Assembly (NCBI GenBank): GCA_018651345.1
Contig: JABIEF010000031.1
Coordinates: 1 to 54,121 of the forward strand
DNA length: 54,121 bases
DNA from: Rhodobiaceae bacterium
GTDB lineage: Bacteria > Pseudomonadota > Alphaproteobacteria > Rhizobiales > TMED25
Direction: 5' to 3'
Shown here: positions 6,802-50,379 of the stretch, piece by piece
Numbering within the stretch: position 1 is the first letter of the stretch
Layout: each line of letters begins with the position of its first letter
Made by a program: the position numbers and the translations under genes
Notes under the pieces: generated by a model
Database searches by the model: none
What the model was told of the DNA's origin: nothing
The model's input: only the letters and a program-made list of their open reading frames with translations

Positions 6802-7617
6802 CTAAAAATTTGGAGTATTCTCTTTTAATACACCTCCAAGTATAAAAGAATCTATTTTACTTACTAATCCTGAACTGTCATCAGTCTCAATCATAACACC
6901 AGATAAAGTTGCACTTTTGCGCGCTGGAATAAGTTTTCCACTAGGAGTATGTGTTAAAAATCGATGTAAGGGTCCTGATTTTTCAAAACCAAGTATAGAA
7001 TCATAGTCACCCGTCATGCCAATATCTGACATATAACCTGTACCTTTTGTAAGTACTCTAAAATCACTAGTTGGAACATGAGTATGCGTACCAACCATTA
7101 AGGTAATTCTGCCGTCAAGGTAATGTCCCATTGCTTGTTTCTCTGAAGTTGCCTCTGCATGCATATCAACAATAATCGCATCTACAGTCTCAATTAATCT
7201 TACATCTAATAACAGTTTATCTATAACAGCAAAAGGGTCATCCATTGCATTCATAAAGACTCTTCCCATTAAATTAGCTACCAAGATTTTTTTCCCAGAT
7301 TCTGTTTCAAACACCCCAGCTCCCTTACCAGGCGTGCCTGCTGGAAAATTTGCTGGCCTAATTAATCTTTCCTGTCTGTTAATAAAAACCATTGCTTCTC
7401 TTTGGTCCCAAATATGATTCCCGGTTGTTATAACATCAACACCAGAATCAATTAATGAATTAGCAATACGTTCAGTTATTCCAAAACCTGCAGCTGAATT
7501 TTCTCCATTGGCGATAACAAAATCTAACTTATATTTACTTCTAATTTCAGGTAATCTTTCATGAACAATTTTTCTGCCAATCTCACCAACAATGTCACCG
7601 ATAAATAATATTCTCAC
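6802..7617 (-). CDS. YmdB-like metallophosphoesterase (TIGR00282 type)
   Basis: Calcineurin-like phosphoesterase of the YmdB family, 271 residues. Metal-binding motifs are complete: Asp8 in FIGDIVG, the NGENSA motif near residue 38, TTGNHIWD near 66-71, and the His residues of VDMHAEATSEK and VGTHTHVPT. Characterised YmdB proteins hydrolyse 2',3'-cyclic nucleotides; the substrate in alphaproteobacteria is not established. It overlaps the upstream 5-FCL gene by 4 bp, a pairing common in this class, so the two are probably co-translated. Confidence 0.9.
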   Translation of the reverse strand: MRILFIGDIVGEIGRKIVHERLPEIRSKYKLDFVIANGENSAAGFGITERIANSLIDSGVDVITTGNHIWDQREAMVFINRQERLIRPANFPAGTPGKGAGVFETESGKKILVANLMGRVFMNAMDDPFAVIDKLLLDVRLIETVDAIIVDMHAEATSEKQAMGHYLDGRITLMVGTHTHVPTSDFRVLTKGTGYMSDIGMTGDYDSILGFEKSGPLHRFLTHTPSGKLIPARKSATLSGVMIETDDSSGLVSKIDSFILGGVLKENTPNF

Positions 7618-8219
7618 TGTATTCCCTCATTCTTCTTTATAATAAATATCTCTTTTTCATTTAAAATATAATCTAATTTCTCATCAAATATCTCAGTTGT
7701 CACCTTATCAATACATTGCAATTCATAACATACACCAATAAATGCAATATCGAAGCTGTTTCGCATGAATTTGATAGTTCTATCAAAATAACCACCACCA
7801 TAACCGAGGCGAAATCCTGATCTATCAAATAGTAATCCTGGTACGAAAATTATATCTGGCTGAAGCGTTCTTTTGGTAATCATAGGCTCCAAAATAGAAT
7901 ATTGATTTTTTATAAGCGTATCACCTAATTTCCATTCCTTATAAACAAGAGGCTCATTATTATTTATTATACACGGCAGAGATATATCAAAACCTTTCAA
8001 AAAAAAATCTTCAATAAGAGGAAATATATTAAATTCAGAACCAAAAGGGTAATAACAACCAATTACATTAACATTTTCTTTAATATAGGGACGCTGTATA
8101 CTAATGGCTTCTATGGAGGATTGTTCTCTTTGCAGATCAGAGATAGTACCCCTCTGTTCAAGCGCCTTCTTTCTTTCAAGCCCCTTTATTGTTTTAACTT
8201 CTTTGATGGCTATCCTCAA
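7614..8219 (-). CDS. 5-formyltetrahydrofolate cyclo-ligase family protein (YgfA)
   Basis: Enzyme expected to convert 5-formyl-THF to 5,10-methenyl-THF using ATP, returning folate to the one-carbon pool. The basic N-terminal segment (ERKKALEQRG) and the C-terminal phosphate-binding motif FRLGYGGGYFDRT (about 137-149) are the family signature. At 201 residues it is typical. The reading begins with TTG at 8219 without a clear ribosome-binding site, so the exact start is uncertain. It lies directly downstream of the 6S RNA, the same linkage as ssrS-ygfA in other proteobacteria, and may share that transcript. Confidence 0.9.
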   Translation of the reverse strand: MRIAIKEVKTIKGLERKKALEQRGTISDLQREQSSIEAISIQRPYIKENVNVIGCYYPFGSEFNIFPLIEDFFLKGFDISLPCIINNNEPLVYKEWKLGDTLIKNQYSILEPMITKRTLQPDIIFVPGLLFDRSGFRLGYGGGYFDRTIKFMRNSFDIAFIGVCYELQCIDKVTTEIFDEKLDYILNEKEIFIIKKNEGIQ

Positions 8220-8245
8220 AAATAAAAATAAAATTTATATAAATT

Positions 8246-8397
8246 GATGCCACATGGCCGTGGATATCGACAATCCCGGGTTCCCTATTAGTATAGGTGG
8301 GTGCCAAATGAAAAAAACCACGGTTCTAATCAGCGTCAGCTCCCTTAAGAATCATTAAGGCCCTAGGTATAGTTTATCTCACAAACCACATAGCATT
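8246..8397 (-). ncRNA. ssrS: 6S RNA (RNA polymerase-binding regulator)
   Basis: Read on the minus strand, this gap between zapA and the 5-FCL gene carries a closing stem (ATGCTATGTGG near the 5' end pairing, with G-U pairs, to CCATGTGGCAT at the 3' end). Between them lie long imperfect complementary arms around a central open region with AGGGCCTTAATGATTCTTAAG and GGCACCCACC-like segments, which is the layout of alphaproteobacterial 6S RNA. The length, about 152 nt, and the position beside 5-FCL/zapA match known ssrS loci. The product would bind sigma70 holoenzyme and lower transcription in slow growth. Just upstream of the 5' end is an AT-only stretch (about 8398-8416) that could hold the -10. 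The exact ends are inferred from the stem. Confidence 0.88.
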
Positions 8398-8441
8398 TAT
8401 AATATATATATATATGTTACATGCAGCAATAAATTAATCTA

Positions 8442-48515: not shown

Positions 48516-49397
48516 ATGAAGAAAATATCAAAAGCTATAATACCTGTTGCAGGACTTGGAACAAGAATGCTTCCAGCTACAAAAAATTTGCCTAAAGAAT
48601 TATTGCCTATATTTGATCGACCGATGATCGAATATGCCCTTAAAGAGGCCTCTGAGGCAGGTATTGAAGATATTATATTCATTACAGGAAAAAATAAAGA
48701 AATGCTTCAATATTATCTCGGTAAAAACTATCAAGCCCGTCACACTTTTACTGAGGATAATAGGTCTATAAAACCAGAAAGACCAACCAAAAGTGAGTTA
48801 AATCCCAATAATATAGTATTTATAGAACAAAAAGAACCTTTAGGACTGGGTCACGCAGTTCTATGTGCCAAGAATATTATAGGCAATGAATCATTCTGCT
48901 TAATACTCCCCGATATGCTAGCAAAAGGTAAACCGGGTTGCTTAAGTCAAATGTTACAAGCTTATAATATTAATAAAGGAAATATAATTGGTCTAGAAAA
49001 AATACCTATAGAAGATACTTACAAATATGGTATTGTTAAAATATCTGATAAGAAAAATAATGTCTGTAAAATAGATGGCATGATTGAAAAGCCAAGACCT
49101 GAAAAAGCACCATCAAATTTAATGATTATGGGAAGATATATATTGCAACCAGAAATATTTGATACATTAGAACATCAAAACCCAGGTCACAATAATGAAA
49201 TACAGCTAACAGATGCCTTAATTACACTTATTGAAACACAAAAATTTACTGGCGTAGTGTTTGATGGAAAAACTTATGATTGTGGAGATAAATTAGGATA
49301 TTTAATGGCAAATTTACAATACGCTCTTGATAGTGAGGCAAATAATTCGGATATTAGAAAGACTCTTGTAAAATTAATACAAACATTGGAAAGCTAG
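48516..49397 (+). CDS. galU: UTP-glucose-1-phosphate uridylyltransferase
   Basis: Makes UDP-glucose. 293 residues with the N-terminal nucleotide-binding motif VAGLGTRMLPATKNLPKE, LPIFDRPMIEYALKEA, FIEQKEPLGLGHAVLCA, and the sugar-binding IEKPRPEKAPSNL. A GGATAA ribosome-binding site precedes the ATG. Its last codons contain a GGAAAG sequence placed to serve as ribosome-binding site for kdsD. Confidence 0.95.
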   Translation: MKKISKAIIPVAGLGTRMLPATKNLPKELLPIFDRPMIEYALKEASEAGIEDIIFITGKNKEMLQYYLGKNYQARHTFTEDNRSIKPERPTKSELNPNNIVFIEQKEPLGLGHAVLCAKNIIGNESFCLILPDMLAKGKPGCLSQMLQAYNINKGNIIGLEKIPIEDTYKYGIVKISDKKNNVCKIDGMIEKPRPEKAPSNLMIMGRYILQPEIFDTLEHQNPGHNNEIQLTDALITLIETQKFTGVVFDGKTYDCGDKLGYLMANLQYALDSEANNSDIRKTLVKLIQTLES

Positions 49398-49401
49398 TAA
49401 T

Positions 49402-50379
49402 ATTATTAATAAAATAAAAATTGTTGAAAAGACAAAGTCAATAGTTAGCGCTGAGATTGAAGGCCTTAATCTCATTATTAATGGATTAGAGGGTGATCTT
49501 TCAAGCTCTCTCTGTAAAGCCATAAATATTATACATGAATCTAACGGTCACGTAATAATTTCTGGAATTGGTAAGAGTGGACATATCGGAAACAAGATTT
49601 CTGCCACGTTATCATCAACAGGTACTCCATCATTCTTCATTCATGCAACAGAAGCTAATCATGGCGACCTTGGCATGATCACAAAAAATGATTGCTTGTT
49701 AATACTATCCCATTCCGGAGAAACATCAGAATTAAAAAATATTATAAATTATACAAAGAAAAACTCCTTGCCACTAATATCAATTACTGGAAATAAGAAT
49801 AGCATGCTGAGCTTAGCCTCTGAAGTTGCAATTATTCTTCCAGATGCCAAAGAAGCTTGCCCTAACTCTTTAATACCAACAACCTCCACAACAATGCAAT
49901 TAGTTATTGGGGATACAATCGCCATGATATTAATGGAGTTAAATTCTTTTTCAGAAAAGGATTTTAAGAAATTTCATCCTGGTGGACGCATTGGAGCGTC
50001 TCTCCTGAATATTGATGAAGTTATGCATACAGAGAAGAGCCTACCAATTATTTCATTGGGCAAATCAATGGGTGAGGCAATTATAATTATGAATGAAAAA
50101 AGATTTGGTTGCGTAGGAATAATAGATGAAATTTCTGGTCAGCTCATTGGCATCATAACCGATGGAGATTTACGCAGATCGATGGGGGTAAATCTAGTTG
50201 ATACAAGTGTTGAAAAAATTATGACCAAAAATCCAATTACATTAATAGAAAAAGATTCAATTAAAAATGCGATCAATCTATTGAATAAAGAAAAAATAAC
50301 TTGCGTATTTGTGACCAAAGATAAAAAACCAATTGGTATTGTGCATTTGCATGACCTTATAAAGATTACATCTACATAG
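49402..50379 (+). CDS. kdsD: D-arabinose 5-phosphate isomerase (KdsD/KpsF), non-AUG start
   Basis: Isomerises ribulose-5-P to arabinose-5-P for Kdo synthesis. The SIS domain with GIGKSGHIGNKISATLSSTG, HATEANHGDLGMI and LSHSGETSEL is complete only if translation starts upstream of the first ATG (49675). Two CBS domains follow (about 205-325). In this frame no ATG, GTG or TTG occurs from the frame-opening stop (49375) to 49675. The best start is ATT 49402, eight nt after GGAAAG at the end of galU, giving 325 residues, the family's normal length. ATT 49405, ATA 49414 and ATT 49420 are alternatives. A sequencing indel near 49410-49425 is the other possible explanation. Confidence 0.85.
   Translation: MINKIKIVEKTKSIVSAEIEGLNLIINGLEGDLSSSLCKAINIIHESNGHVIISGIGKSGHIGNKISATLSSTGTPSFFIHATEANHGDLGMITKNDCLLILSHSGETSELKNIINYTKKNSLPLISITGNKNSMLSLASEVAIILPDAKEACPNSLIPTTSTTMQLVIGDTIAMILMELNSFSEKDFKKFHPGGRIGASLLNIDEVMHTEKSLPIISLGKSMGEAIIIMNEKRFGCVGIIDEISGQLIGIITDGDLRRSMGVNLVDTSVEKIMTKNPITLIEKDSIKNAINLLNKEKITCVFVTKDKKPIGIVHLHDLIKITST

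Follow-up and report, generated by a model that had tools for sequence, protein, structure and literature searches.

Roughly fifteen unrelated genes of a marine family of the Rhizobiales appear, from comparison of their sequences, to start at AUU, AUC or AUA (AUH), many more than would be expected of bacteria. The case from which this pattern emerged is kdsD, located near the end of a 54,121-nucleotide stretch of a Rhodobiaceae bacterium genome (contig JABIEF010000031.1, hereafter the window). In our judgment it is likely (probability of about 0.83) that kdsD translation begins at an AUU codon, read by the ordinary formyl-methionine initiator tRNA after the upstream gene galU has been translated, and that the gene represents one instance of a tolerance for AUH starts that extends across the family.

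The kdsD gene and its start

The features of the galU–kdsD region on which the start assignment is based are as follows:

48516–49397, forward strand: galU, UTP-glucose-1-phosphate uridylyltransferase, an open reading frame matching TIGR01099 at 304 bits, just under the cut-off of 326.8; gene order the same in the related genome G001
49388–49393, forward strand: Shine-Dalgarno-like GGAAAG, within the last galU codons and 8 nt before the ATT at 49402
49402–49404, forward strand: proposed kdsD start ATT; ATT ATT AAT AAA is conserved in G001, with no ATG, GTG or TTG there in either genome
49402–50379, forward strand: kdsD, KpsF/GutQ-type arabinose-5-phosphate isomerase, 325 codons plus stop when counted from this ATT; a SIS and two CBS domains
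49675–49677, forward strand: first in-frame ATG of kdsD, at residue 92 and within the SIS domain; the choice of gene callers

The open reading frame list places a TAA at 49375–49377, the open frame from 49378 and the stop codon at 50377–50379. A scan of this frame from 49378 for ATG, GTG and TTG found none before the ATG at 49675, in agreement with the sequence-only reading that had first drawn attention to the gene. The product belongs to the KpsF/GutQ subfamily and is a predicted arabinose-5-phosphate isomerase: in profile searches it matched TIGR00393 at 280.3 bits (cut-off 203.7), while the score for the narrower KdsD equivalog NF008141 was below its cut-off (273 versus 505), and Pfam identified a SIS domain (PF01380) followed by two copies of PF00571 (a CBS pair). 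Its best relatives of solved structure are SIS-domain sugar isomerases, including an arabinose 5-phosphate isomerase. The SIS domain spans residues 44–174 of the long form, and a short form from 49675 would lose 91 residues, and with them the GIGKSGHIG half of that domain, and would retain only profile positions 50–129 of 131. The proposal that the N-terminal SIS region lies upstream of the first ATG therefore stands, as does the prediction that gene callers would truncate the protein, since a mechanical caller yielded a product of 234 aa. No second copy of kdsD was found in the genome from which the window derives, and a scan of viral contigs for relatives found none.

The start region was compared with that of G001, a separately assembled genome of the same genus (a marine MAG carrying a Rhizobiales label, FRAM18_bin081) whose KdsD is 88% identical in protein sequence and whose gene order is alike. 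The G001 start region, TAATAATATTATTAATAAAATT, shares TAAT-ATT-ATT-AAT-AAA with the window, has an in-frame stop four codons ahead of its first ATT and contains no canonical codon in frame before codon 25. The ATG at codon 25 is the first in that frame, and as the window has ATT at this position, the ATG is not common to both species. Examination of a related genome had been proposed as a check on the start, and G001 showed the frame to be intact with no canonical codon. Over codons 1–91 the two genes differ with dN 0.107 and dS 0.777 (dN/dS 0.14), and over codons 1–24 alone with dN 0.135 and dS 0.717; in the upstream stretch there are 13, 4 and 34 differences at codon positions 1, 2 and 3, respectively. 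Based on the logic that two species lack a canonical start and that selection acts on the upstream codons, we infer that the upstream stretch is translated and begins at a non-canonical codon. The ATT start claimed for kdsD is thus supported by its conservation in a second species and by the purifying selection apparent upstream of the first ATG. It is kept within the genus, for which one relative was compared, and the sister genus has ATG.

These comparisons effectively exclude, at the level of sequence, an assembly error, a pseudogene, a hidden canonical start and a short protein. The genome is a 79-contig assembly and such assemblies contain single-base errors, so that a lost base might conceal a normal kdsD start; this is scarcely credible given that the separately assembled species also has no canonical codon in its start region, and that both the reading frame and the pattern of synonymous change are undisturbed on either side. 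Initiation at the ATG at 49675, with the upstream part untranslated, has in its favor that this is the first canonical start, but it would remove half of the SIS domain, it is at odds with purifying selection on 91 upstream codons and a different ATG would come first in G001, and we give it next to no credence. A programmed +1 frameshift at the end of galU, producing a GalU–KdsD fusion, is very improbable as well. Although the kdsD frame is +1 relative to that of galU, with an overlap of about 20 bases in the window and of 8 bases in G001, the overlap codons are neither slippery nor conserved (GAA AGC TAG versus GAA GGT TAA), re-pairing would likely take mismatched tRNAs and, as the MTHFS gene described below follows a 6S RNA gene, a frameshift would leave other cases uncovered.

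In-frame stops confine the possible starts to a few codons. Among these, the most likely start of kdsD is the ATT at 49402, with the second ATT directly after it (49405–49407) a close and possible alternative; the former is preferred because of its spacing. The ATG of kdsD in the sister genus aligns at about residues 1–3. The GGAAAG that had been noted eight nt upstream of the ATT was found at 49388–49393, and its counterpart at the same place in G001 is AGAAGG. The predicted duplex is −3.3 kcal/mol in the window and −4.5 kcal/mol in G001, compared with −11.7 kcal/mol for infC, making the window kdsD element the weakest of the set examined. The galU stop codon (TAG, 49395–49397) is four bases before the kdsD ATT, an arrangement that is the same in G001, and because galU ends so close to kdsD in both species, ribosomes most likely reach kdsD by re-initiating after galU. 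Well-documented cases in E. coli show re-initiation at starts a few bases from the stop of the preceding gene (PMC2268962). With a stop a few bases from the downstream start and a gene order conserved between the window and G001, kdsD is probably coupled to galU in this way.

Further genes lacking a canonical start

A second gene of this type is present in the window, in the neighborhood in which 6S RNA and the MTHFS gene are usually found (ssrS-ygfA):

7614–8207, reverse strand: MTHFS/ygfA, 5-formyltetrahydrofolate cyclo-ligase gene, PF01812 at 94.7 bits; proposed start ATC at 8205–8207
8213–8217, reverse strand: MTHFS Shine-Dalgarno GAGGA, 5 nt before the ATC
8243–8399, reverse strand: 6S RNA, RF00013 at 58 bits (gathering threshold 46.4), directly upstream of the MTHFS gene

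The MTHFS start context is GAGGATAGCC-ATC, and GAGGATAG-C/A-C-ATC is common to the starts of the window and G001. The only upstream TTG overlaps the GAGGA and is CTG in G001, in which no canonical start was found before codon 100. Standard callers would truncate this gene or pick the unlikely TTG. Elsewhere in the window, 5S rRNA and the 3′ end of 23S rRNA are located at the contig edge (53713–54121, minus strand), and no 16S rRNA gene was found in the assembly.

As a control, 49 gene pairs of the window and G001 were compared, followed by 555 pairs drawn from 761 kb of the window's genome and 846 kb of the G001 genome, and flagged pairs were screened for selection on their upstream codons and inspected. 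Dropped at this step were ORFs apparently antisense to other genes (G000 C4:32522, C31:7091 and C78:65), ORFs overlying tRNA genes and genes in which the conserved upstream part looked non-coding. Nine of the 555 orthologous pairs had no canonical start: kdsD, MTHFS, infC, fdhA, polA, a FemAB-like gene, a NUDIX gene, an SDR protein gene and ispE. The start contexts of the remaining seven are:

infC: AAAGGAGGATTACC-ATA
fdhA: GGAGTTGACCA-ATC
polA: GAGGATAGAACA-ATA
FemAB-like gene: AAGGAAAAAAAT-ATT
NUDIX gene: GGAGGTATAAAA-ATT
SDR protein gene: AGGAAATTGT-ATA-ATT
ispE: AAGGA with ATT 11 nt away (a long spacing)

In the FemAB-like, NUDIX, FdhA, SDR and InfC proteins, a Pfam domain already starts ahead of the first canonical codon. 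The infC start appears to be ATA in the two species of the genus and is preceded by a strong Shine-Dalgarno, and the infC start region looks alike across the family. For fdhA, other Rhizobiales carry an ATG at residue 2, the exact position of the ATC, and the sister genus has an ATG at residue 5 of ispE, at residue 19 or 24 of polA and at residue 11 of the FemAB-like gene. In the window's genome polA has a GTG that could serve as a start, which is GTT in G001. An ATC start context is also present in this genome for PduO.

In the sister genus, 5 of 278 sampled pairs from two genomes were without a canonical start, and these were mostly genes other than those of the first genus:

CCA/poly(A)-polymerase-family gene: GGAGG, ATC (G010:C10, G004:C16)
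trpA: GGAG, ATT
PduO-type adenosyltransferase: AAGGA, with ATC or ATA depending on the species
trmL: AAGGA, ATT
cytochrome b561-like gene: ATC in one species only, ATG in the other

In the SDR protein gene of the sister genus, an in-frame stop is directly followed by ATT or ATC, which lies six bases past GGAG. Some AUH starts therefore seem to be common to the family and others to come and go between the genera: infC (AUA), PduO and the SDR protein have AUH starts in both, trpA and trmL have ATG in the window's genus, and kdsD, polA, ispE and FemAB have ATG in the sister genus. At the same start the third base can differ between species (ATC/ATA in PduO, ATT/ATC in the SDR protein). In nearly all of the listed genes a Shine-Dalgarno precedes the AUU, AUC or AUA at the usual spacing, and in relatives an ATG is often found at this position or close to it. 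As every case consists of AU followed by U, C or A, a tolerance at the third base is suggested.

An identical filter applied to the phages T4 and RB69 (35% GC) flagged none of 78 pairs, which is only mild evidence in a control of this size, as 1.3 flags would be expected at a rate of 1.7%. Spacing was evaluated in 27 contexts that were copied by hand and picked for having no canonical start. In 22 of them the best Shine-Dalgarno was followed by the AUH codon at an aligned spacing of 3–8 bases, compared with 9.6 contexts on average and never more than 18 when the data were permuted 2000 times; as the contexts were preselected, this test supports the codon assignment and not the gene count. The script had picked the wrong element for infC in G001, for MTHFS in the window and for trpA in G004, which accounts for three of the misses, and ispE, with two contexts, is a true misfit to the spacing rule. 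When every AUH codon ahead of a first canonical start was considered, there was no Shine-Dalgarno enrichment (odds ratio about 1.0–1.2), since the Shine-Dalgarno of an ordinary ATG also serves the codons immediately preceding it. The argument is based on the genes without any canonical start.

A permissive start or a regulated gene set

We propose that ribosomes finishing galU at 49395–49397 would remain bound to the mRNA and begin again four bases further on, helped by the weak Shine-Dalgarno, and that the ordinary fMet initiator tRNA would read the AUU at 49402 (possibly 49405) with a third-position mismatch. In other organisms such mismatched reading by this tRNA is the established route to initiation at AUU, AUC or AUA. 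The first amino acid would then be formyl-methionine, and initiation at an AUH codon coupled to galU would probably reduce kdsD expression. On this model the family would tolerate AUU, AUC and AUA in roughly 1.5–2% of genes, given a Shine-Dalgarno at normal distance. Components of the initiation machinery were also inspected. The IF3 protein of the lineage is intact over its length and not degenerate. All four initiator tRNA genes recovered from three genomes have an AGG/CCU anticodon stem; the stem of the E. coli initiator is GGG/CCC, with three G-C pairs, and AGG/CCU-like stems probably occur in other Rhizobiales as well. Crude parsing of the sampled stretches found no extra initiator-like tRNA beside the CAU one. 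The same initiator tRNA sequence ends two contigs of the window's assembly, perhaps as one repeat that broke the assembly.

The sequence-only reading had suggested that Kdo synthesis would be under an unusual initiation control. This part of it was not supported, as at least nine genes of the genus, PduO and at least five genes of the sister genus are alike in this respect and the sister-genus kdsD starts at ATG; the AUH start is, as judged from these genes, a feature of the translation of the lineage and not of kdsD. A broader regulatory explanation, in which kdsD and the other genes with AUH starts form a selected set controlled by IF3, is unlikely in our view. It is consistent with the AUA start of infC in both genera, with the intact IF3, with the repression of non-canonical starts by IF3 elsewhere (PMC5472188) and with the retention of AUH starts in both genera by infC, PduO and the SDR protein. 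However, the genes have no common pathway, and most of them differ between the genera, with TrpA and TrmL starting at ATG here and kdsD, polA, ispE and FemAB starting at ATG there. Because the genes share no pathway, permissive initiation combined with drift from ATG under A+T pressure (the genome has a GC content of about 33%) appears to explain the pattern better than a regulon would, and it is possible that AUH starts attenuate individual genes. It is conceivable, though we hold this only tentatively and think it somewhat less probable than not, that the ribosome of the family has lost much of its third-base discrimination and that AUN is a general start by way of a change in the initiation machinery, for which the initiator tRNA stem is one candidate. 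If this is true, changes from ATG to ATH would be nearly neutral in weakly expressed genes.

Relation to known AUH starts

The infC gene of E. coli has an AUU start that serves the autoregulation of this one gene, and infC of Streptomyces has an ATC start. As in E. coli infC, an AUH codon here is the only start of a conserved gene, and infC of this family apparently begins at AUA; in contrast to that single autoregulated gene, many unrelated genes carry AUH starts in this lineage. IF3 is a fidelity factor that resists AUH starts (PMC5472188). An AUU start limits the expression of E. coli pcnB (Binns and Masters 2002, as cited in PMC13009471), which is called there only the second chromosomal AUU example in that organism, and similarly the CCA/poly(A)-polymerase-family gene of the sister genus apparently starts at ATC. 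In S. aureus, AUH starts were identified in infC (AUA), cvfC1 (AUU), ccpN (AUA) and citZ (AUA), and initiation profiling and reporters showed that AUU and AUA starts work at about 10–30% of AUG (PMC13009471). Our lineage resembles S. aureus in having several AUH starts per genome with Shine-Dalgarno support; the four S. aureus sites were found genome-wide by profiling, whereas here at least nine genes among 555 sampled were identified from sequence alone. Streptomyces sigR has a conserved GTC start that is misannotated in databases and repressed by IF3 (PMC5472188); unlike the AUH genes described here, its mismatch is at other codon positions, and it is a single regulator whose role is proven.

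Starts at AUU, AUC and AUA pass for curiosities: when about 69,000 ancestral starts were reconstructed, in a study limited by annotation, only two had switched to AUU (PMC5622118). We found no description of a lineage with 1.5–2% AUH-dependent genes in the literature searched, which was covered in part. Single AUH starts are known, and it is their lineage-wide use that appears to be new. The habit may be commoner than recorded, with gene callers hiding such genes. If our interpretation is true, standard gene callers shorten or overlook housekeeping genes of this family, such as polA, ispE, trpA and infC, start-codon stringency can evolve, and these bacteria provide natural material for finding which part of the machinery sets it.
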